Below, piece after piece: positions 1,941 to 23,146 of a stretch of DNA of 37,899 bases (position 1 is the first letter of the stretch; every line of letters begins with the position of its first letter). The notes below the pieces were generated by a model. The model was not told where the DNA came from. It made no database searches and was given only the letters and a program-made list of their open reading frames with translations. Origin of the DNA: a virus; IMG/VR virus record IMGVR_UViG_3300022696_000130, positions 1-37,899 of that record. One strand, given 5' to 3'. The translations under genes were made by a program, and so were the position numbers.

Positions 1941-2189
1941 TTAATAGAGATCAGAAGGATCAACTGTTCCTTCCGGTTCCTTGTATTGATCGCATTTTGT
2001 AAAAGTTTCCAAGAGACTGTCAACTGCCGTTGCATATCCCTTATGAATATCGTTCATAGAACTGTCGTTTTTTTTGAACGCTTCATAGTTCTGACGAGAC
2101 AACTCAGCAAGATATTCCATGAAGTCCTGGCCGTCAGTCCCATGTTTGATACGCTTGAACATCTCTATGACTTGTTCTTTAGGCAGCAT
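1941..2189 (-). CDS. Small head-operon protein, unknown
   Basis: An 82-residue, mostly helical, charged protein between the portal and scaffold genes. Its start overlaps the end of the portal gene by 11 bases, which indicates translational coupling. I do not recognise a family. Small conserved proteins in this slot occur in several podovirus-like head operons, so a role in head assembly is a reasonable inference but not shown by any motif. Confidence 0.7.
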   Translation of the reverse strand: MLPKEQVIEMFKRIKHGTDGQDFMEYLAELSRQNYEAFKKNDSSMNDIHKGYATAVDSLLETFTKCDQYKEPEGTVDPSDLY

Positions 2190-4260
2190 TGTTCACCCCT
2201 GCTTTTGAACCGTCCGGGTTTGTTCCTTGTGGCTTGGCAACAGCACCACCACCATTAGCGACCTGTCCATTTTGCTGGATCGGGTCTACTCCCGCCTGAG
2301 CCATAAGCATCTGTTGGATCACCTGTTCAATATCCTGTACTCCCTCCAATCTCTTCATGTCCGGGAGGGAGATGTTGTTGGCCTTGGCAATCTGGGCAGC
2401 AATCGAGCCCAAATTCTCCGGGCCAAGAATCTGGCTCATCACCGGGGTCATAGCGAGCTGGAGGTACTCAATCTTCCTCTGTGCCTGCTGTTCTTTGATC
2501 TGGAGCCCATGAACACCCTTGGCGACGACTCGTGCATCCCCTTTGATGTCCGGGTTGTCAGAGAACTGCATTTTGTAGTCATAGCACATGGAGATGTAAG
2601 GCTCGATGATGTCATCGTCAACATTGGCGACGGTTGCCTTGATAGACCGGGAAGCAGCCGCCAACAGTTCTGTAAAGACAGTTGCCGTACCGGATGTGAC
2701 ACCAACCTGGTTCTGCCCCTGTGTGTAGGCTGGGACTGTCATCTCGTCAAGAACCTGAGAAAGGAACTTATACGCGGTGATAAGTTCCTGGCAGTGCATC
2801 TGCGGCTGGTAGTAATTAACCGCTGGGCCTTCCGTCTTCATCTGCAAGGAAGTCGATTCGACAACACGCCACGGGTAGATCGGAATACGCGTATCAACGC
2901 GATCCTTATCCACCTCAGCCATTGGCCCTGAAGCGATTGCAATATTGTTAATCAAGGCCCGTGCGACAGCGTTAAGGGCATCTTCAACAGGAGCGCCGAA
3001 TTCAAGCAGGCCTTCACCCACATAGGTCTCTGGGTTTTTCGCCCATGAAGTCGAATGGTAGGGTTTTCTGCCGAGAGAATCAGGGTTAAGGACAGCCTTT
3101 ATGACGTGCTTGCCAATCTTCCAGCAATTGGCGTGATATTGGCGATCAGGATCGAGCTGCTCCTCAACGCCCCACTCCATGAGAAGGCTTCCTTTCACAG
3201 TCCCTGTGAGTTCCTGGGCGTAAACAAGGTCTTCTTCTTTCTGGAATGATGTGTTTTGAGTCGGCGGGTTGGTCGGGTAGTTGGGGATTTTCTGGATCGC
3301 CCTTTTGATTTCGTTCTCCCCCTCGATGGTGAACCACTTTGCTTTAAGTTTTCCACTTTCCAGCTCACGCAGAACCATGCGAATGCGGTCAGAATCGTAG
3401 CCACTGACACCGATAAGGTCGTAAAGAGACTCTTTGGTGAGTTCGTGGACTTCGATGATGTCGCCGTCGTTGAGTTCCTTCACGCCTGAAGCGGGGAAAA
3501 TGTTAAATGGAGACACACAATAAACGTCGTGGGCGAGGACTTCCTGGGCCTCAATAGCGTAGGTATCGCCCTGAGGAACCCAAACCTGCTTCTTTTTCTT
3601 AGTCAGGATCGGGCCTTTGATGACAGCAAAAGGAAGGCGCGTGTAATACCAGAGAAAATCCTTGAAGGCCTTATTCCAGCCACCTTCTTCATTGTCGTCC
3701 CTGATCTCCTTGGCAGTCAGTTCACAACGCTCTTTTGCGTCCTTACTGATCTCTTCCTTTGCCTCTTCAACCTTCTGCTCGTAGTATTCCTGAATGATTT
3801 TAGCTACTTGGTTCTTGTCTACAACCTTCCCATCGGCAACAAGCTGCTGTTCGACAACCATTGCCTCCTGAAGAACCGCCTGCTTGACTTCTTCTATTTT
3901 CTCGTCAGGCAAATCAGGGACGGTTGTTGGCTGCAAAACCCAGGGATAATCTGAATCGCCACGATAAATGTCTTTTATCCACGACTCAGCAGAGCGGCAC
4001 TTCGTCTCCAGGTTTCTGATATAGATGTCAGTTCCCTTAAAGGCCTTGATCGCCGCTGCTTTTTTGTTGTCGTATTCACCTTTGGAACGCTTGAGAAGAA
4101 GCGCCATCTGGTTTCTGACAGGTTTGAAGTCCTCAAGGTTCTTTTGCCACACCTTATCAACGTGCTGTGACAGCTTATCGATGACAGGCTCATCTTCCGG
4201 TATGGCTTCCCGGAGAAACTCCATGTCGTCCTGATTGGGGTCGGCAACAATCGGGTCCAT
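2179..4260 (-). CDS. Portal protein
   Basis: A 693-residue protein lying between the large terminase and scaffold genes. The stretch around residues 413-450 (GEGLLEFGAPVEDALNAVAR, then ALINN...ASGP) matches the conserved core of portal proteins, where a helix contacts DNA in the central channel. The first 200 residues are highly charged and helical, with a long insertion rich in Lys/Glu at about 120-195. The C terminus is a Gly/Ala/Pro/Asn-rich tail. Its length fits the P22-like class (about 700 residues) rather than the shorter siphovirus class. The portal forms the dodecameric vertex through which the terminase pumps DNA. The ATG has AAGGATCATAA upstream. Confidence 0.88.
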   Translation of the reverse strand: MDPIVADPNQDDMEFLREAIPEDEPVIDKLSQHVDKVWQKNLEDFKPVRNQMALLLKRSKGEYDNKKAAAIKAFKGTDIYIRNLETKCRSAESWIKDIYRGDSDYPWVLQPTTVPDLPDEKIEEVKQAVLQEAMVVEQQLVADGKVVDKNQVAKIIQEYYEQKVEEAKEEISKDAKERCELTAKEIRDDNEEGGWNKAFKDFLWYYTRLPFAVIKGPILTKKKKQVWVPQGDTYAIEAQEVLAHDVYCVSPFNIFPASGVKELNDGDIIEVHELTKESLYDLIGVSGYDSDRIRMVLRELESGKLKAKWFTIEGENEIKRAIQKIPNYPTNPPTQNTSFQKEEDLVYAQELTGTVKGSLLMEWGVEEQLDPDRQYHANCWKIGKHVIKAVLNPDSLGRKPYHSTSWAKNPETYVGEGLLEFGAPVEDALNAVARALINNIAIASGPMAEVDKDRVDTRIPIYPWRVVESTSLQMKTEGPAVNYYQPQMHCQELITAYKFLSQVLDEMTVPAYTQGQNQVGVTSGTATVFTELLAAASRSIKATVANVDDDIIEPYISMCYDYKMQFSDNPDIKGDARVVAKGVHGLQIKEQQAQRKIEYLQLAMTPVMSQILGPENLGSIAAQIAKANNISLPDMKRLEGVQDIEQVIQQMLMAQAGVDPIQQNGQVANGGGAVAKPQGTNPDGSKAGVNNAA

Positions 4261-5569: not shown

Positions 5570-8032
5570 CTATGTGCAGGCGTTCATGTGGTCGGTAATT
5601 CTCACGACTTTTCTTCCGCTTTCTTTTTGTGGATATTGCCAGTGCGAAGGCGGCGCGTTAATCAAATATCTAAGCGAATCTAACCTATGATCGTTGGTTT
5701 TGACAATTTGCCCCTTATCATCACGGTGATAGAGGCTGAGTTCTCTAAGAACACCCGTGCAGGATTTGAAGATTTTCAAGCGCCCGGAGGTGAAGCGTTC
5801 CCAAACAGCAAAAATTCCCGCTTCTCGTGCATTATTTGCAGGGATAAGCTTTAAGCCAAGCCCTCCACGGGCCTCAGGAAGTCCGTAAATGTCAAAAAGC
5901 TTCTGCCCATCGACCTGGCTTCTCCCACGGGCCGCAGGGTCAATTTCTCCGCGTATCCATGTTCCCCTGGCTTTAATGGCCTTTGCGTGGACGACAGGCT
6001 CCACCAGGCCTTGCATATGCTCTGAATAGACATAAATAACATCATTGTCTGCATCCCAAGCTCCCCAGACGGCGGCAGTGTTGTTCCAGCCAACATCCAT
6101 GCCATAAAGCTTTTTGTAGTGCATCGGGATAGGAAAATCATCGACAACAACATTCTTTGGGTCAATCGGGTAAACGAGACCTTCACCAACGGTTGGTGTC
6201 CCCTTGGAGCGGGCCTCTCTAAGCTGTGGCGGGGTCGAAGCCAGCATCTTGCGCTTGATGTCTTCTGTTAAGTGGGGGACATCATCCCAGGACACGACCT
6301 GGACGTATTTTTTATCTTCAGCGTCTGTTTCCTGTGAGTTGTCCAGAAACGACAACACAAGGTCAGTTACGCCCTGAAGGGGAGTGAACGTCAGTAGCAT
6401 AATCCCCTGGGTCGTCATCAGGCGGATCAAGCCCTCGCCATAGACATCCATTGGGCACTCCTCGTCAACCCAGATAACGTCAACCTCCGTCCCCTGCCAT
6501 GTGGCACGGCCCTGTTCGTAGGTTTTAAGGACAATTGTTGATTCTCCGCCAGAAGAATGACGGACTTTGATGATTTCAAGCGCCTCTGGAACATTGCGGC
6601 GGGTTTTACACTTCTCCGTGATGATCGATTGCTTGGGAAGCATCCCTGAACCCATATCAAGAAGATCGTCTCCAACAAGCTTCTTCTGGATAATGTCTCG
6701 AACAGTCGTAGCCGTATCGCCCCCCACCCAGATTAGAATTGGTCTGTTGAATTTTTTCCCGGCCCACCAGTCTGGGTAGTTCCCTGTCGCATGACAGGTT
6801 ATTTCGTAAGCCCCTGCTTCTGTTTTCCCCGTGTTATGGTGGACAACGCCAGCGGAAAAATAGCATTTGTGCTTTTCCACCGTAAAGTCTATTATAGGCT
6901 GGAAACCGAGTGGAAGGACACAAACAATGCGCTTGCAACCAACAAGAGAAGGATGCCACAGTGGGTAAAACGTCTGAATGCGAGAAACATCACCAGAAGA
7001 TTCTCTTACTCCACGGCCAGGGCAAAGGGTTTGGCACAATTGCCAAAGAGCTTGGTCTTTCGCATAAAGCTGTGTCAATTTATTGTCGTCGTCGTGGAAT
7101 TTTTTCAGCAACTCCTCGTGGAACAAATCGCCAGAAAATCTGCCATGACACGCTAAGATTGCTTGTTGAAGCCGAGAAGAAAACTCAAAAAGACGTGAGT
7201 GAAATTCTTGGTGTGTCTTTGTCAGCCGTAGAACGGGCGTGCTCGAAGCTGGGCCTGAAAACATCTCGAACAGGTCCGAGAAGCGGCAAGGGTCATCCTC
7301 AATGGTCAGGAGGTAGGGGTCTTGCGAAATTTGGTTATATCTGGATATACGCTCCAATGCATCCGAATGCGACAATGCCAGCAGGCCGCGTTCTGGAACA
7401 TCGCCTGGTAATGGAGGTGTCTCTTGGGCGCTATCTTGGGAAAGACGAAGTGGTCGATCACCGAGATGGCCACCCGCGCCATAATTGGCCAGAAAATCTC
7501 CGGCTGTTTGGCTCAAATGCAGACCACTTGAGAGAGACATTAGCTGGTCAATTTGCATCCAGCCGAACTCAGTCAATACCCGGTGCTTACGGGTGCAGTC
7601 AAAAAATTCACCAGTGTCCGTCACAAAACGAAACATTGGCTCAATGCCCTTCAGAATTCCGCCAGAAACTTGACCGTCACATTGTGCTTCACCGTCCCAC
7701 GAAAGAACTGTCGCATCTTTCGAAGAAGCAACTTCTACGGATCGGCGCAATCCAGAATCCATTCGAATGAACGTCCAGGGGCTGACACATCGGTTTCCTG
7801 CGATAAAAGCCCGTTCAATATACTCTCCCCCAGCATTGAAGAATTCAATGTGCTTCGGATAGAGTTCTCTTCGGTATTCACCAGTATCAGGAAAGAAATT
7901 TTTGAACTTATTGTACTTCTGGTCATGAGCAACTACCTCCAGGGCTTCAAGTAGCTCAACTTGCTCCTGGTCATTGAGTTGCTTGGCGTATTGTTCGACC
8001 AGAGTTTTGGTGAGGGCGTCTAAAAGACTCAC
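5570..8032 (-). CDS. Terminase large subunit containing an intein
   Basis: Packaging motor ATPase/nuclease. From the GTG at 8032 the precursor has 820 residues; removal of the 319-residue intein would leave 501, normal for the family. The N-terminal extein ends ...FIAGNR and the C-terminal extein begins TGKTEAG, which together restore Walker A GNRTGKTE. Walker B is VIWVDE (D523/E524). The RNase H-fold nuclease acidic residues are seen in GMDVGW (D646), GEIDPAARGR (D698) and NDHRLDS (D781/D785). The GTG overlaps the preceding stop by four bases (GTGA) and has TGGAG seven bases upstream; an ATG at 8062 is an alternative giving 830 residues. Without splicing the ATPase site would be interrupted, so splicing must be efficient. 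Confidence 0.92.
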   Translation of the reverse strand: MSLLDALTKTLVEQYAKQLNDQEQVELLEALEVVAHDQKYNKFKNFFPDTGEYRRELYPKHIEFFNAGGEYIERAFIAGNRCVSPWTFIRMDSGLRRSVEVASSKDATVLSWDGEAQCDGQVSGGILKGIEPMFRFVTDTGEFFDCTRKHRVLTEFGWMQIDQLMSLSSGLHLSQTAGDFLANYGAGGHLGDRPLRLSQDSAQETPPLPGDVPERGLLALSHSDALERISRYNQISQDPYLLTIEDDPCRFSDLFEMFSGPASSTPVLRLTKTHQEFHSRLFEFSSRLQQAILACHGRFSGDLFHEELLKKFHDDDNKLTQLYAKDQALWQLCQTLCPGRGVRESSGDVSRIQTFYPLWHPSLVGCKRIVCVLPLGFQPIIDFTVEKHKCYFSAGVVHHNTGKTEAGAYEITCHATGNYPDWWAGKKFNRPILIWVGGDTATTVRDIIQKKLVGDDLLDMGSGMLPKQSIITEKCKTRRNVPEALEIIKVRHSSGGESTIVLKTYEQGRATWQGTEVDVIWVDEECPMDVYGEGLIRLMTTQGIMLLTFTPLQGVTDLVLSFLDNSQETDAEDKKYVQVVSWDDVPHLTEDIKRKMLASTPPQLREARSKGTPTVGEGLVYPIDPKNVVVDDFPIPMHYKKLYGMDVGWNNTAAVWGAWDADNDVIYVYSEHMQGLVEPVVHAKAIKARGTWIRGEIDPAARGRSQVDGQKLFDIYGLPEARGGLGLKLIPANNAREAGIFAVWERFTSGRLKIFKSCTGVLRELSLYHRDDKGQIVKTNDHRLDSLRYLINAPPSHWQYPQKESGRKVVRITDHMNACT
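6867..6895 (+). promoter_or_regulatory. Sigma70-like promoter for the antisense HNH gene
   Basis: TTGTGC at 6867-6872 and TATTAT at 6890-6895 are separated by exactly 17 bases. The -10 matches five of six consensus bases and the -35 three of six. Transcription would start near 6902, giving a leader of about 60 bases to the HNH start codon. It lies inside the coding region for the C-terminal splicing block of the intein, so the same bases would serve both uses. Confidence 0.4.
6961..7770 (+). CDS. HNH homing endonuclease encoded antisense to the intein
   Basis: A 269-residue protein from the GTG at 6961, preceded by AGAAGG at 6947-6952. Two helix-turn-helix-like segments come first (about residues 24-47, TIAKELGLSHKAVSIYCRRR; and about 64-100, KDVSEILGVSLSAVERA). 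Next is a typical phage HNH domain: LEHRLVMEVSLGRYLG, EVVDHRDG, NWPENLRLF and ADHLRE, with His167, Asn179 and His189 as likely active-site residues. An upstream in-frame ATG exists at 6910 but lacks an SD. The whole gene lies inside the intein DNA on the opposite strand. The HNH body (to about 7530) faces the intein linker; the last 80 residues are the complement of the N-terminal splicing domain and may be fortuitous. It would be expected to cut intein-less terminase alleles. Confidence 0.85.
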   Translation: MGKTSECEKHHQKILLLHGQGKGFGTIAKELGLSHKAVSIYCRRRGIFSATPRGTNRQKICHDTLRLLVEAEKKTQKDVSEILGVSLSAVERACSKLGLKTSRTGPRSGKGHPQWSGGRGLAKFGYIWIYAPMHPNATMPAGRVLEHRLVMEVSLGRYLGKDEVVDHRDGHPRHNWPENLRLFGSNADHLRETLAGQFASSRTQSIPGAYGCSQKIHQCPSQNETLAQCPSEFRQKLDRHIVLHRPTKELSHLSKKQLLRIGAIQNPFE

Positions 8033-8298
8033 ACGATGACTCCACTTTGCCAGAGAGACCATTGCCTCATCTTGTCGGTGATCTGTCTTTCCGGCAGCTC
8101 GATGCGTTGGGGTGAGATGTCGAAGTCTTGGGCGAGCCTCTCTCTAAGGTCTTTAAAGAACTGGGTCATATCGAGATGATCGTAGTCGTATTCTATCTTG
8201 AGATTTAAATACTCGTTGTCGTAGCGATAGACCATCATCAGGTAGGTCTTGCCATCTTTCTCGACAATCACCATCTTCATCAAATCGGCGGTAATCAT
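8029..8298 (-). CDS. Small protein upstream of large terminase, unknown
   Basis: An 89-residue protein, rich in Asp/Tyr/Met, beginning with a beta-strand-like half (KDGKTYLMMVYRYDNEYLNL) and ending in a helical half. Its ATG overlaps the stop of the preceding 49-aa gene (ATGA) and its own stop overlaps the terminase GTG (GTGA), so it is a coupled member of the packaging operon. No family is recognised. Confidence 0.65.
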   Translation of the reverse strand: MITADLMKMVIVEKDGKTYLMMVYRYDNEYLNLKIEYDYDHLDMTQFFKDLRERLAQDFDISPQRIELPERQITDKMRQWSLWQSGVIV

Positions 8299-8444
8299 TT
8301 CTCTCCCAAGACGTAAGAAAGGCAGGGCTTACCCTGCTCAAAGTGTCGTTTAAGCTCCATATAAAGCCTCTGAGCGTCGTTCTCACTCAGCTCTATAAGA
8401 ACCCCGTCTATCTCCAGAAGAAGGTCTCTAACAAGCTTGACCAC
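8295..8444 (-). CDS. Small helical protein (49 aa), unknown
   Basis: From the GTG at 8444 this frame encodes 49 residues (MVKLVRDLLLEIDGVLIEL...) and ends in a TGA that overlaps the ATG of the next gene. GGGAGGG stands seven bases before the start. It overlaps the end of the 52-aa gene by 17 bases in another frame. Amphipathic helices dominate; no motif is recognised. Support comes from the SD and the clean start/stop overlap. Confidence 0.5.
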   Translation of the reverse strand: MVKLVRDLLLEIDGVLIELSENDAQRLYMELKRHFEQGKPCLSYVLGEK

Positions 8445-8586: not shown

Positions 8587-9509
8587 AGCCAGTCCTCCTG
8601 GACGTTTTCTCCCAGGTATTTCTTGTAGGGGGCGAGGCTACCGCCATACTTCTTCACATTTTTGAGAAGATTCCCTGTCGCTAAAGCATCGACAAGACCC
8701 CCAGCGATTCCCAGGGCTGGAGTGGCCGCTTTTGCTGCTGCTTTCCCCTTGGCAAGATAGCGCATGAACGCATCTGAGGCTTTCTTTACAAGTTTCGGGT
8801 CTTGCATCCAGTCCCTTGAGAGTTCAATAACCTGCTTATTCGGTGCGGCAGCTGTTTCATTGTAGGGAGCGCGGCTCATGGTAATGTCGTTCGCCTGGGC
8901 GCTATTGGCCCTGATTTCGTGGTGCGCCCTTTTGTAAACGTCTGATCCCAGTTCTTCGGCGGCCTTGTTTGAGTATTTGTCGTGCGGCATAACCTCGTCA
9001 TTTGCCCGGTCATAAAGGAATCTGCTGCCCCAGCCCTTCTTTGCAGCTTGTTTATGAGCAGTAAGGTTCTTCTTTGCGTTGACAGCGTGGTCTACCTCGT
9101 GGGCAAAAACAGAATTCGCCTTACCGGGGGAAAGGCCTTCTTTAAGCTGCACCAAAGCCTTTGCTTCCCTCCTTCCCGTTTGAGCAGCACCAGCGGCTCC
9201 TTTGTAGGGGAACCTTTCCGGGACTTCGTAAAGGGATTTTTTTATTTGTGGCAAGTCTGCTACAGGCCCAGGCTCCATCGCCGTTGGCATCGGCACTCTT
9301 CGCATCGGGAGAAGGCCGACATTCCCACTCTTCCCCTTGCCAAAAGAAAGTGGGCTTATCTTCAGTGCCGGGTTATCAAGCCACCTATAAATCCCTGAGC
9401 CGGATAAAGACGAAAAGGCGTTGGCCTGGGTGAGGTAGTTCAGATAGTTCTCATAGCCCTTTGAATTCTGGCTGATGGGTCTCACAGGAACGAAGACATT
9501 TGTTCTCAC
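8583..9509 (-). CDS. Zincin-like (HExxH) protein in the packaging operon
   Basis: A 308-residue basic protein starting with GTG that overlaps the small terminase stop (GTGA) and has GGAGGAA upstream. Residues 136-141 read AHEVDH, a His-Glu-x-x-His zinc-metallopeptidase signature set in a helix (NSVFAHEVDHAVN), followed by a His/Lys/Asn-rich region that could supply a third ligand (HHE near residue 196). The C-terminal part (about 250-285) is Ala/Gly-rich and moderately hydrophobic (AAKAATPALGIAGGLVDALA), like proteins that touch membranes. The position between the small and large terminase genes is unusual for a protease. It may be a virion protein injected with DNA, a maturation protease, or an inactive relative. 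Confidence 0.6.
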   Translation of the reverse strand: MRTNVFVPVRPISQNSKGYENYLNYLTQANAFSSLSGSGIYRWLDNPALKISPLSFGKGKSGNVGLLPMRRVPMPTAMEPGPVADLPQIKKSLYEVPERFPYKGAAGAAQTGRREAKALVQLKEGLSPGKANSVFAHEVDHAVNAKKNLTAHKQAAKKGWGSRFLYDRANDEVMPHDKYSNKAAEELGSDVYKRAHHEIRANSAQANDITMSRAPYNETAAAPNKQVIELSRDWMQDPKLVKKASDAFMRYLAKGKAAAKAATPALGIAGGLVDALATGNLLKNVKKYGGSLAPYKKYLGENVQEDWL

Positions 9510-10048
9510 TTCACTTCCTCCGCATCAATCGCATCGTCATGCACAATCTGCTTGGCAACCTCTGTGTTCTTCAAGGCCTCAAGAAGCCTTGGAGCAAGCT
9601 GCTCTATTTTCTCCCGCGCCTGCTCTGCCGTGAGTTGTATCTTCGTTGTGGTGTTGGTGGAATCAATCTTGTCTGCCCACCCATGAATATTCTTCATGTA
9701 AGCTATTTTCCCAGCGGCCATCCCCTTGGTGTTGTAAACGTCCATTTCCGCCCAGTTCGCAATAATCATCCGGGCGTGTTCCAAAATGTCCGTAAACTCC
9801 GGGTACTGCAAATACTGGTAGAATTGCCGCTGGTACATTTTCATCTGGATCATCATCCCCTTGATGCTGGGGATCTCATCGTTTTCTTCACACCACTCAA
9901 AATACTTGTTAATCGCGTTTACCATCCGCCGGGGGGTCATCTTCTTTTTCCGCCCGGTGGTTGTCATCTTACTGTCTAATCGGTCTAAAGGACGCACAAC
10001 AGTCCTATTGTTCTTCTGTAGCTCTTTCTTCCGTTCCGAAAAGTCCAT
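9506..10048 (-). CDS. Terminase small subunit
   Basis: From the ATG at 10048 (GGAGGAAGCG directly upstream) the protein has 180 residues; a GTG at 10069 and an ATG at 10060 are in-frame alternatives with weaker sites. The core YFEWCEENDEIPSIKGMMIQ, then QYLQYPEFTDILEHARMII and KNIHGWADKID, follows the pattern of the small-terminase/DNA-packaging protein family, in which an N-terminal helix-turn-helix recognises the packaging site and the rest oligomerises. A basic N terminus (TTGRKKKMTPRR) precedes it. It is the first gene of the leftward late operon. Confidence 0.82.
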   Translation of the reverse strand: MDFSERKKELQKNNRTVVRPLDRLDSKMTTTGRKKKMTPRRMVNAINKYFEWCEENDEIPSIKGMMIQMKMYQRQFYQYLQYPEFTDILEHARMIIANWAEMDVYNTKGMAAGKIAYMKNIHGWADKIDSTNTTTKIQLTAEQAREKIEQLAPRLLEALKNTEVAKQIVHDDAIDAEEVK

Positions 10049-10469
10049 CGCTTCCTCCATTAAAGGCACTATCCAAGATTCTTCCTCATAAGGTCAAGTT
10101 AAACATTAAAGAACTCTCTGGACTGTTTTTCTATGATGTTGTGCATCTTAGAGGTTCTTATAAGCTTCAGCAGGGGTGGGGGATTGGTAGGGGGGCCATC
10201 GATTGGCAGCTTTAAAACAAACCCAACAACCGGGCTACCGGGGGAGACACAGCCCAGCTTCTAATATAACCACATCTGATGTACCAGCCCCGAGGGATTC
10301 GAGACTACGTTCGTCTAAGCACCTGTTCTCTCGTCGTCAACACACACACTACTTGGTATAAAGTTATGGGTATATTATGCCCTACATTAGAATATAGGGG
10401 ATTGAGTGGGTGTAGACACTCTCTTCTGGAGTGGTCTACCTCTTCTCACCCTTGCAAACGGAGCGGAAA
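10049..10469. promoter_or_regulatory. Divergent control region between late and early genes
   Basis: About 420 bases without a convincing gene, separating the leftward packaging/head operon from the rightward genes. It must hold promoters for both directions. AT-rich tracts that could be -10 elements occur on the plus strand at about 10366-10396 (GGGTATATTATGCC and TTAGAATATAGGGG). On the minus strand TTGACC and GATAGT lie 18 bases apart just upstream of the small terminase. None is strong enough to call individually. The right end contains the first copy of a 43-base hairpin repeat. Confidence 0.5.
10402..10444 (+). repeat. 43-base leader repeat, copy A
   Basis: Begins TTGAGTGGGTG and ends GGTCTACCTCTT; 36 of 43 positions match copy B at 11115-11157 without gaps. 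This copy can fold into a hairpin: GTAGAC pairs with GTCTAC and, inside it, ACTC with GAGT. It lies 25 bases before the first rightward gene. It could be a promoter or activator site, an RNA-binding protein site, or a leader hairpin. Confidence 0.6.
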
Positions 10470-21571: not shown

Positions 21572-23146
21572 ATGTCGAACCTGTTTATACGCTCACTCCC
21601 AGTCGTCGCATCGGCTATGGGAAATAAAATGGGCGTTGAAGTCATCATTGGTGACATGGGTGCATGTACTGACGGGAAAAGAATCTATCTGCCTGAACTA
21701 CCTGAAGGCGACGACCTGTTCACGCTTGCACGGGGCTATATCGACCACGAATCAGCACACATTGAAGACACCAACTTTAGTGTCTGGCCGAAAGATAAAG
21801 GCCCTGAGCAGACAATGACCAACATCATTGAAGACATCCGCATTGAAAAGAAAAGAAGTGACCGATACCCAGGTTGCTCCGTCAACCTGAAGAAGCTTGT
21901 GCAGTTACTTGCAGACAAAGGAGACTTCAGCCCGGATCAAAACGATCCTGGTGAAGTGTTCTCAGCATGGATTTTGTCGCGTGGTCGCTTTGACTACTTG
22001 AAGCAGGATGGCGTTGAGAAAATCGCTGACGAAACAGAAAAGCTGCTCCGCGATATGATTGGTGATGATGTCATGGACGACGCTCGCAAACTTATGGGCG
22101 AAATCCCAAGCCTAAAAAGCACGGAAAACTCTAAAGAGCTTGCCAACAAAATTCTCGACCTTCTCGGAAAACAGAAAAATAAACCAAAGAAACAAGACCA
22201 GAACCAACAGGGACAGGGAGGGCAAGGAGGCGGAGAAAAGAAAGACGGATCGCCCCAAAAAGGCGGTGGATCGCAGGAAAAGAAAGACGCTATTGATAAA
22301 ATCCTGAACAACAAAAAGGATTTCGGCAATATCAGCCAGATTCTCCAGGAGGAATTAAACGATAAAGCAACCTCAGATCCGGATAAGTCTTCAGGCTCTT
22401 ACCCAGGAGAAGAATTTGCTTCACACAACAGAAGGACAAACTTCGACACCAGCAAAGTCAGAGAAAAAACGGTTGGGCTTCGGACAAAACTTTCACGCAT
22501 GGTCGCAGCACAACGTCTCAAAAGAACGCACGAAAGACAGACGGGGAGGAAGGTGAATTACAGAGTCCTGCACAGAATCGCCGCCAATAACCCACGCGTT
22601 TTCTGCGCCAAGGAACTTCGCACCGACGACAATACAGCAGTCGCCATATTGCTTGATCGCTCTGGATCAATGGCGGGAAGGGAAATTAAAATTGCACGGG
22701 AAGCAACCTATGCTATCGCTGACGCTCTTGATCTTATCCCAGGCGTTGCTGTAACAACTGCTGCGTTCCCAAGCACCAGAAATAGAATCCTTGTCATAAC
22801 CCCATTCGGGAAAAGCGTGAAGAGAACGCAGGATGCCTATGGCATTGAAGCAACGGGTGGAACGCCAATGCTCGAAGCCATCAACTGGGCCAGAACGAAA
22901 ATGATGCAGCGCACCGAGCCGCGTAAGATTTGCCTGGTTATCACAGATGGAGGCCCCTCAGACCCTCAGCGTGTCAAAAAGACAATCAAGAAGATGGAGA
23001 GAGAAGGCATTGAAATGATGGGGATTTGGATTCAATCCAGAGTTGATTCTCTCTTTGAAACAAGCATCATGATCAACAACGTATCTGAGCTGACAAAAAA
23101 TCTCTTCAAGCTGTTTGAAAAGAAGCTGGTAAAGAAAACGGTATAA
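21572..23146 (+). CDS. CobT-like protein with HExxH and VWA domains
   Basis: A 524-residue protein, with AGGAGAAATT upstream. Residues 57-64 read IDHESAHI, a His-Glu-x-x-His site as in phage CobT-like proteins, followed by NIIEDIRIEKK (84-94). Residues 200-240 are a Gly/Gln/Lys linker. A C-terminal VWA domain has the metal-site motif LLDRSGSM (360-367), a GGTP loop near 428 and LVITDGG near 455. Together with the MoxR/CobS-like ATPase it should form a two-part machine in which the VWA domain binds a client and the ATPase remodels it. Whether it handles a metal cofactor is not known. Confidence 0.82.
   Translation: MSNLFIRSLPVVASAMGNKMGVEVIIGDMGACTDGKRIYLPELPEGDDLFTLARGYIDHESAHIEDTNFSVWPKDKGPEQTMTNIIEDIRIEKKRSDRYPGCSVNLKKLVQLLADKGDFSPDQNDPGEVFSAWILSRGRFDYLKQDGVEKIADETEKLLRDMIGDDVMDDARKLMGEIPSLKSTENSKELANKILDLLGKQKNKPKKQDQNQQGQGGQGGGEKKDGSPQKGGGSQEKKDAIDKILNNKKDFGNISQILQEELNDKATSDPDKSSGSYPGEEFASHNRRTNFDTSKVREKTVGLRTKLSRMVAAQRLKRTHERQTGRKVNYRVLHRIAANNPRVFCAKELRTDDNTAVAILLDRSGSMAGREIKIAREATYAIADALDLIPGVAVTTAAFPSTRNRILVITPFGKSVKRTQDAYGIEATGGTPMLEAINWARTKMMQRTEPRKICLVITDGGPSDPQRVKKTIKKMEREGIEMMGIWIQSRVDSLFETSIMINNVSELTKNLFKLFEKKLVKKTV

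Follow-up and report, generated by a model that had tools for sequence, protein, structure and literature searches.

A phage terminase intein overlapped in antisense by an HNH homing-type endonuclease gene

Mobile inteins of phages have been described with the endonuclease fused in frame to the splicing domain, as in the dCTP deaminase intein of cyanophage CL131, which combines HintN with an in-frame HNH_3 endonuclease (PMC6293099), and inteins in the large terminase subunit (TerL) of mycobacteriophages are known to splice, two of them having been shown to cleave (PMC5050341). Antisense homing genes are known from a different setting, the group I intron of Didymium squamulosum that harbours I-DsqI, for which expression and cleavage were shown (PMC9548176), and HNH endonucleases have been found hidden in insertions of the DNA methylases of phages ShiLan and Pacc40 (PMC11855218). 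In the open-licence literature that we searched, we found no published report of an antisense endonuclease within an intein.

The locus analysed here lies in a 37,899-nt stretch of viral DNA (IMG/VR record IMGVR_UViG_3300022696_000130; the whole stretch is referred to as the window) and resembles the large mobile inteins of CL131 and of mycobacteriophage TerL in its HINT domain, in the placement of the endonuclease region between blocks B and F and in its probable homing life cycle, and the latter also in its location in the TerL ATPase domain. It differs from both in that the endonuclease is a separate gene on the opposite strand, with its own start and outside the intein polypeptide. With I-DsqI it shares an antisense homing gene inside a self-splicing element, whereas I-DsqI belongs to an element that is spliced at the RNA level, resides in eukaryotic rDNA and encodes no second protein from the same bases. 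With ShiLan and Pacc40 it shares an HNH gene concealed in another reading frame of an insert through which the host gene stays open. A hidden methylase HNH of this type (Mycobacterium phage Filuzino gp74) is distantly homologous to the antisense HNH proteins, but there both frames are read from one strand and a search for a splicing domain gave none, while ours is antisense in an intein. Free-standing HNH proteins of phages phiH, Thibault and Soul22 have a homologous core, but are encoded by genes of their own without an intein, and mini-inteins at the same TerL site have homologous splicing parts but lack the HNH region. The features of the locus are as follows (window coordinates):

5570..6832, minus strand: TerL C-extein, remaining ATPase and RNase H-like nuclease
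6833..7789, minus strand: intein, 319 aa, C1...VVHHN, within the Walker A motif GNR^TGKT
6833..6982, minus strand: C-terminal splicing half, residues 270-319, with IIDFTVEKHKCY at 6860-6895 and VVHHN at 6833-6847
6995..7492, minus strand: intein linker, spanning residues ~100-265 and modelled with low confidence; most of the HNH gene lies across from it
7505..7789, minus strand: N-terminal splicing half, residues 1-95, with approximate boundaries judged by the confidence of the model
within 7505..7789, minus strand: block A with C1, and block B (CTRKH, 7583-7597)
7790..8032, minus strand: TerL N-extein from the GTG start at 8032, ending ...FIAGNR
6947..6952, plus strand: Shine-Dalgarno-like AGAAGG of the HNH gene
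6961..7770, plus strand: gene for the 269-aa HNH endonuclease, starting at GTG and running antisense to the intein
6976..7251, plus strand: two helix-turn-helix units, HNH residues 6-44 and 62-97
7396..7530, plus strand: HNH catalytic motif EHR...VVDH...HN..ENL...NADHL

The minus-strand open reading frame (ORF) at 5570-8062 encodes TerL (830 aa, or 820 aa from GTG 8032) and matches Terminase_6N (6.8e-22) and Terminase_6C (6.9e-13) in profile searches. The N-extein start was placed at GTG 8032 on the basis of a relative (L007) whose TerL begins MSLLDSL, the upstream ATG 8062 being also possible. The gene is flanked by one for the small subunit of the terminase at 9506-10069 and by one for a head-tail adaptor at 2179-4260. 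Elsewhere in the window, positions 21572-23146 (plus strand) encode a 524-aa protein that matches phage CobT/cobaltochelatase-like families.

The initial annotation had placed a 319-codon intein in this minus-strand terminase, with splicing blocks at both ends and no endonuclease in its centre, and this was borne out: an in-frame insert at exactly 6833-7789 splits Walker A (...FIAGNR/CVSPWTFI...SAGVVHHN/TGKTEAG), both ends are HINT-like and the HNH is found on the opposite strand only. The insert is absent from the same site in empty terL homologues that are up to 97% identical or better. All residues expected of a splicing intein (C1, the block-B His, the C-terminal His-Asn and a Cys, Ser or Thr at +1) are present in the window intein, and C1, the block-B His (H69) and the terminal Asn (N319) are invariant across 41 relatives, although a few groups (including L137 and L154) end in KN rather than HN, and protein splicing is uncertain in these. 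PF14890 is matched by 29 of the 41 relatives, the window intein alone falling below threshold, and the intein profile aligns with the NpuDnaB intein at 5.5e-18. Model confidence is high for residues 1-90 and for residues 280-319 and intermediate around 270, and the modelled HINT fold matches the solved DnaB, RecA and DnaE mini-inteins; the middle (about 100-265), which is the region absent from mini-inteins, has no confident structure (pLDDT mostly 37-69). An intron in place of an intein was excluded, as 6300-8300 had no match to any Rfam family, group I and group II introns included, up to an E-value of 1 and the frame is open throughout the insert. By anatomy and by the footprint described below, the element is thus a mobile intein, yet it is not a canonical large intein, since the fused in-frame endonuclease of that class is missing and the endonuclease lies outside the intein polypeptide.

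On the plus strand, an ORF runs from stop to stop over 6898-7770, with GTG 6961 as its likely start. Its product matches PHROG 20891 (4.1e-21), PHROG 10730 (2.7e-19) and HNH_3 (1.9e-5; at 24.7 bits just below the cutoff of 24.8), the catalytic residues are invariant in 40 relatives, and the model (pLDDT 87) contains two helix-turn-helix units and the beta-beta-alpha-metal core that, together with the motif, characterizes HNH endonucleases. The canonical HNH gene that had been read opposite the intein, with its core at about 7396-7530, helix-turn-helix segments and a ribosome binding site of its own, is therefore present in each of these particulars. In structural comparison I-HmuI is matched weakly (Z 5.1 over 81 residues, a score that unrelated entries also reach), so the family assignment rests on the sequence profiles; Foldseek with the HNH model returned no PDB match below 1e-3, and a second structural comparison scored mostly its helix-turn-helix part. 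A promoter scan revealed no sigma-70-like promoter for HNH on the plus strand and the neighbouring genes are oriented oppositely to it, which counts against the two-gene reading proposed below, and in some relatives the HNH gene has no recognisable Shine-Dalgarno sequence.

The two genes overlap in a defined codon phase, in which HNH position 1 faces intein position 1, position 2 faces position 3 and position 3 faces position 2, and this phase is identical in 87 of 87 loci among the matches listed in the HNH-based survey (see below). Neither frame is expected to be open by chance: when the HNH protein is kept constant, synonymous resampling yields a stop-free intein phase with P ~5e-5 (mean 9 stops), and when the intein is kept constant, the HNH frame was open in 0 of 20,000 draws (mean 12.2 stops). 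In the equivalent antisense phase, five free-standing related HNH genes used as controls contain 5-17 stops (5-8 in phiH, Thibault and Soul22). Homology and selection in the relatives are nevertheless stronger evidence against chance than openness. The N-terminal splicing domain, which is folded in the model, is faced on the other strand by HNH residues ~182-269, and on the models roughly 88 codons are thus dual-coded with both products structured.

In the shared phase, silent changes in HNH fall on intein position 2 and silent changes in the intein on HNH position 2, so selection on the two proteins can be told apart by codon position. Over 15 pairs, changes at intein-frame position 2 versus position 3 numbered 1407:3510 in the exteins and 110:378 in the splicing-only parts, but 591:305 opposite the HNH core (Fisher p 2e-98 versus the exteins and 2e-55 versus the splicing-only parts, values that are indicative, as substitution sites were pooled over pairs, some of them related). 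Thus, the pattern flips at the HNH core while the splicing parts remain normal. In the L115 group HNH position 3 changes at a rate of 0.199, against 0.004 for HNH position 2, with flanking TerL sequence behaving normally (0.05-0.10 at position 2, 0.38-0.45 at position 3), and the closest pair of the window (with L007) exhibits a weaker shift, 0.45 versus 0.39, as expected for that divergence. The HNH protein is therefore under purifying selection. The stop avoidance that the initial annotation had put forward as a constraint on the overlap is real, but across from the HNH core it is HNH that is conserved as a protein, the intein linker being maintained there chiefly as an open frame.

The same layout was found in the IMG/VR contigs L006 and L007, in Pectobacterium phage Ymer and in Pseudoalteromonas phage PHS3, and seven more Pectobacterium and Dickeya phages carry the intein at 94-100% identity. 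In public annotation the Ymer terL is a 'hypothetical protein' and that of PHS3 is given as a truncated terminase and, apart from it, an HNH gene, the intein being overlooked in both. An alignment of five HNH proteins was then scanned against IMG/VR and GTDB genomes, matches being taken as best-80 lists rather than as a census. Among the matches listed, 80 viral and two MAG loci have the HNH antisense inside an ORF that matches the intein profile, the sole exception being L169, a distant HNH; in all, the arrangement was seen in 87 of 87 loci (46 clusters at 80% HNH identity), of which nearly all have insertion sites of the type G[GA]N[RQ]^[STC]GK[ST]. Counting both the HNH-based search and the intein-based search described next, which share contigs, at least 160 loci (121 distinct sequences) exhibit the arrangement, 160 of 160 in the same phase. 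A tblastn search of cultured phages with the metagenomic inteins L137 and L109 gave no match. The arrangement is thus far more general than one phage and defines a large family that includes cultured Pectobacterium, Dickeya and Pseudoalteromonas phages.

Because these loci had been found via HNH, we conducted a second search from the intein end, independent of HNH, using the C-terminal intein block and the TerL flank as query (a combined C-terminal alignment of 35 inteins was too divergent for this purpose, and two closer sub-alignments were used instead). It listed 160 loci, 74 without an intein match and 86 with inteins. Among these 86, 73 carry the antisense HNH in the same phase and 13 are mini-inteins without HNH, and there was no long intein without an HNH match, no sense-strand HNH and no visibly broken HNH, status having been read from HMM matches to open frames, which subtle inactivation could escape. 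Relatives in which the HNH frame is routinely broken beside an intact intein, the pattern named beforehand as telling against a functional pairing, were hence not seen. The 13 mini-inteins are ~130 aa long and the region opposite HNH is missing as a unit; L272, L281, L294 and L295 (130-136 aa) occupy the same TerL site and retain exactly the splicing parts. Such mini-inteins are the expected end-state after loss of the endonuclease.

To compare alleles with and without the insert, we collected 80 near-identical terL genes (the best-80 list for an extein query) and found 44 empty alleles plus one that is probably empty (L352), 25 full and 9 mini alleles, and one cut by the contig end. Among these matches listed, the full inteins are 295 aa long with HNH present in 25 of 25, and the nine mini-inteins are 136 aa long without HNH. 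The full allele L354 and the empty allele L342 differ at only 5 of 2,446 flanking bases, none of them more than 7 nt from the insertion, where L354 reads GGG AAT CGT^TCG and L342 reads GGA AAT CGC^AGC. The flanks compared span 831 nt on one side and 1,615 nt on the other, the latter having been examined for mismatches over the 600 nt closest to the insertion. Taking the full 2,446 nt, this clustering has P 2.8e-12, which, like the two probabilities that follow, is indicative, since the alleles are phylogenetically non-independent. For L090 (full) and L232 (empty), two contigs of the same metagenome, 12 mismatches fall between -138 and +330, 9 of them within -9 to +18 (P 5e-10), with the junction-adjacent residues unchanged. 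At +1, each of the 34 intein alleles has a TCN serine codon, and 36 of the 44 empty alleles have AGY (P 1e-14). An aggregate comparison of flanks was dropped and the clean pairs carry the argument: the upstream comparison was ungapped, and the junction codons also vary among the empty alleles themselves (0.153 within 10 nt), which dilutes an aggregate signal. Short co-conversion tracts are a prediction of break-induced copying of an element, and the mismatches clustered at the insertion are best read from these alignments as such a homing footprint. Presence/absence polymorphism and co-converted flanks, as expected of a mobile element, are thus both found. Moreover, L096/L097 and L099/L100 have identical intein DNA within diverged flanks, which would fit recent transfer, though dual coding also slows change.

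We conclude, with a probability of about 0.9, that this is a mobile intein that exists as two genes on two strands, in which HNH would cut the empty terL site. The central claim of the initial annotation, an intein on one strand and a homing-type HNH gene on the other, is thereby supported by anatomy, homology and selection. At the sequence level the reading is carried by these three together with the fixed phase, the three allele states and the co-conversion footprints, and from them we infer protein splicing, HNH expression and empty-site cleavage. In the proposed cycle, the minus strand would encode a self-splicing HINT-fold intein within Walker A, whose removal would restore the P-loop, TerL being active only after splicing. 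An HNH endonuclease carrying two helix-turn-helix units would be produced independently, from a start on the plus strand; it would cut the terL of co-infecting phages that lack the intein, at the sequence encoding the P-loop, and repair from the intein-bearing copy would install intein and HNH together and convert a few flanking bases. HNH would occupy the place between blocks B and F that an in-frame endonuclease takes elsewhere, here antisense and in one fixed phase, and its internal deletion would generate a mini-intein.

The most serious alternative is that the conserved HNH acts as a free-standing enzyme that cuts elsewhere, for example in competing phage genomes, with the intein serving as a safe harbour and no homing role. 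Related HNH proteins are indeed free-standing, an intein may spread passively by recombination, and the cleavage specificity of HNH is deduced from sequence; but the tight association in the 160 loci listed, all in a single phase, the empty/full/mini polymorphism and the short co-conversion tracts centred on the insertion tell against this alternative, and we regard it as improbable. Less probable still is a carrier in the manner of ShiLan, a non-splicing insert that bears the HNH and is tolerated as a TerL loop. While TerL splicing is deduced from sequence and some groups end in KN, such an insert would split Walker A of the packaging ATPase and would leave unaccounted for the invariant C1, block-B His and terminal Asn, the modelled HINT fold, the mini-inteins that retain exactly the splicing parts and the normal synonymous bias in those parts. 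The invariant splicing residues and the modelled fold led us to reject it.

That the HNH frame is a chance or decayed antisense ORF over an intein that alone is functional might seem in keeping with the lack of a promoter-like site on the plus strand, but its likelihood is negligible: the catalytic residues are invariant in 40 relatives, the codon-position pattern is reversed, openness is improbable by chance, and broken copies were not seen among the 86 inteins or in the terL population, where 25 of 25 full-length inteins retain the HNH. As a general explanation it is ruled out by homology, invariant residues, resampling and codon-position pattern.

The two-strand mobile intein thus remains the preferred reading, and it is likely, if less firmly so, that the locus represents a widespread class in tailed phages, in which an antisense fixed-phase endonuclease is inherited with the intein as a unit, homes actively into P-loop genes (that of the terminase and at least one more), may be expressed at a time other than that of the late terminase gene and could exert an antisense-RNA effect on terL. 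An intein endonuclease accordingly need not share the polypeptide, splicing and homing being separable products of one DNA segment. The antisense overlap is unusually extensive; selection can be demonstrated for either side, and the phase is fixed over 121 distinct sequences. Current annotation conceals the element in cultured phages such as Ymer and PHS3, isolates in which a bench test is feasible, and the coexistence of empty, full and mini terL alleles in metagenomes renders the homing cycle (invasion, degeneration and loss) directly testable.

Several loci depart from the common layout. In L113, L114 and L146 the insertion lies three residues further on, after the GK of Walker A, and thus at a second site. 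An antisense-HNH intein is also found in the P-loop of a non-terminase (L145:1736-5434, minus strand) with a DnaG-type zinc finger, Toprim and an MCM-like ATPase, so the intein family has reached another P-loop gene. The intein of L125/L283 (one contig) is ~211 aa long and lacks the N-terminal splicing region with HNH intact, being either an assembly artefact or a splicing-dead element. The TerL precursors of L115, L104 and L264 contain an apparent second intein downstream, with a LAGLIDADG-like match in L115. Finally, TerL of Proteus phage 3H10_20 (L176, 1-2212) is split in two by a same-strand HNH gene, probably an intron, and thus accommodates an HNH in another way.
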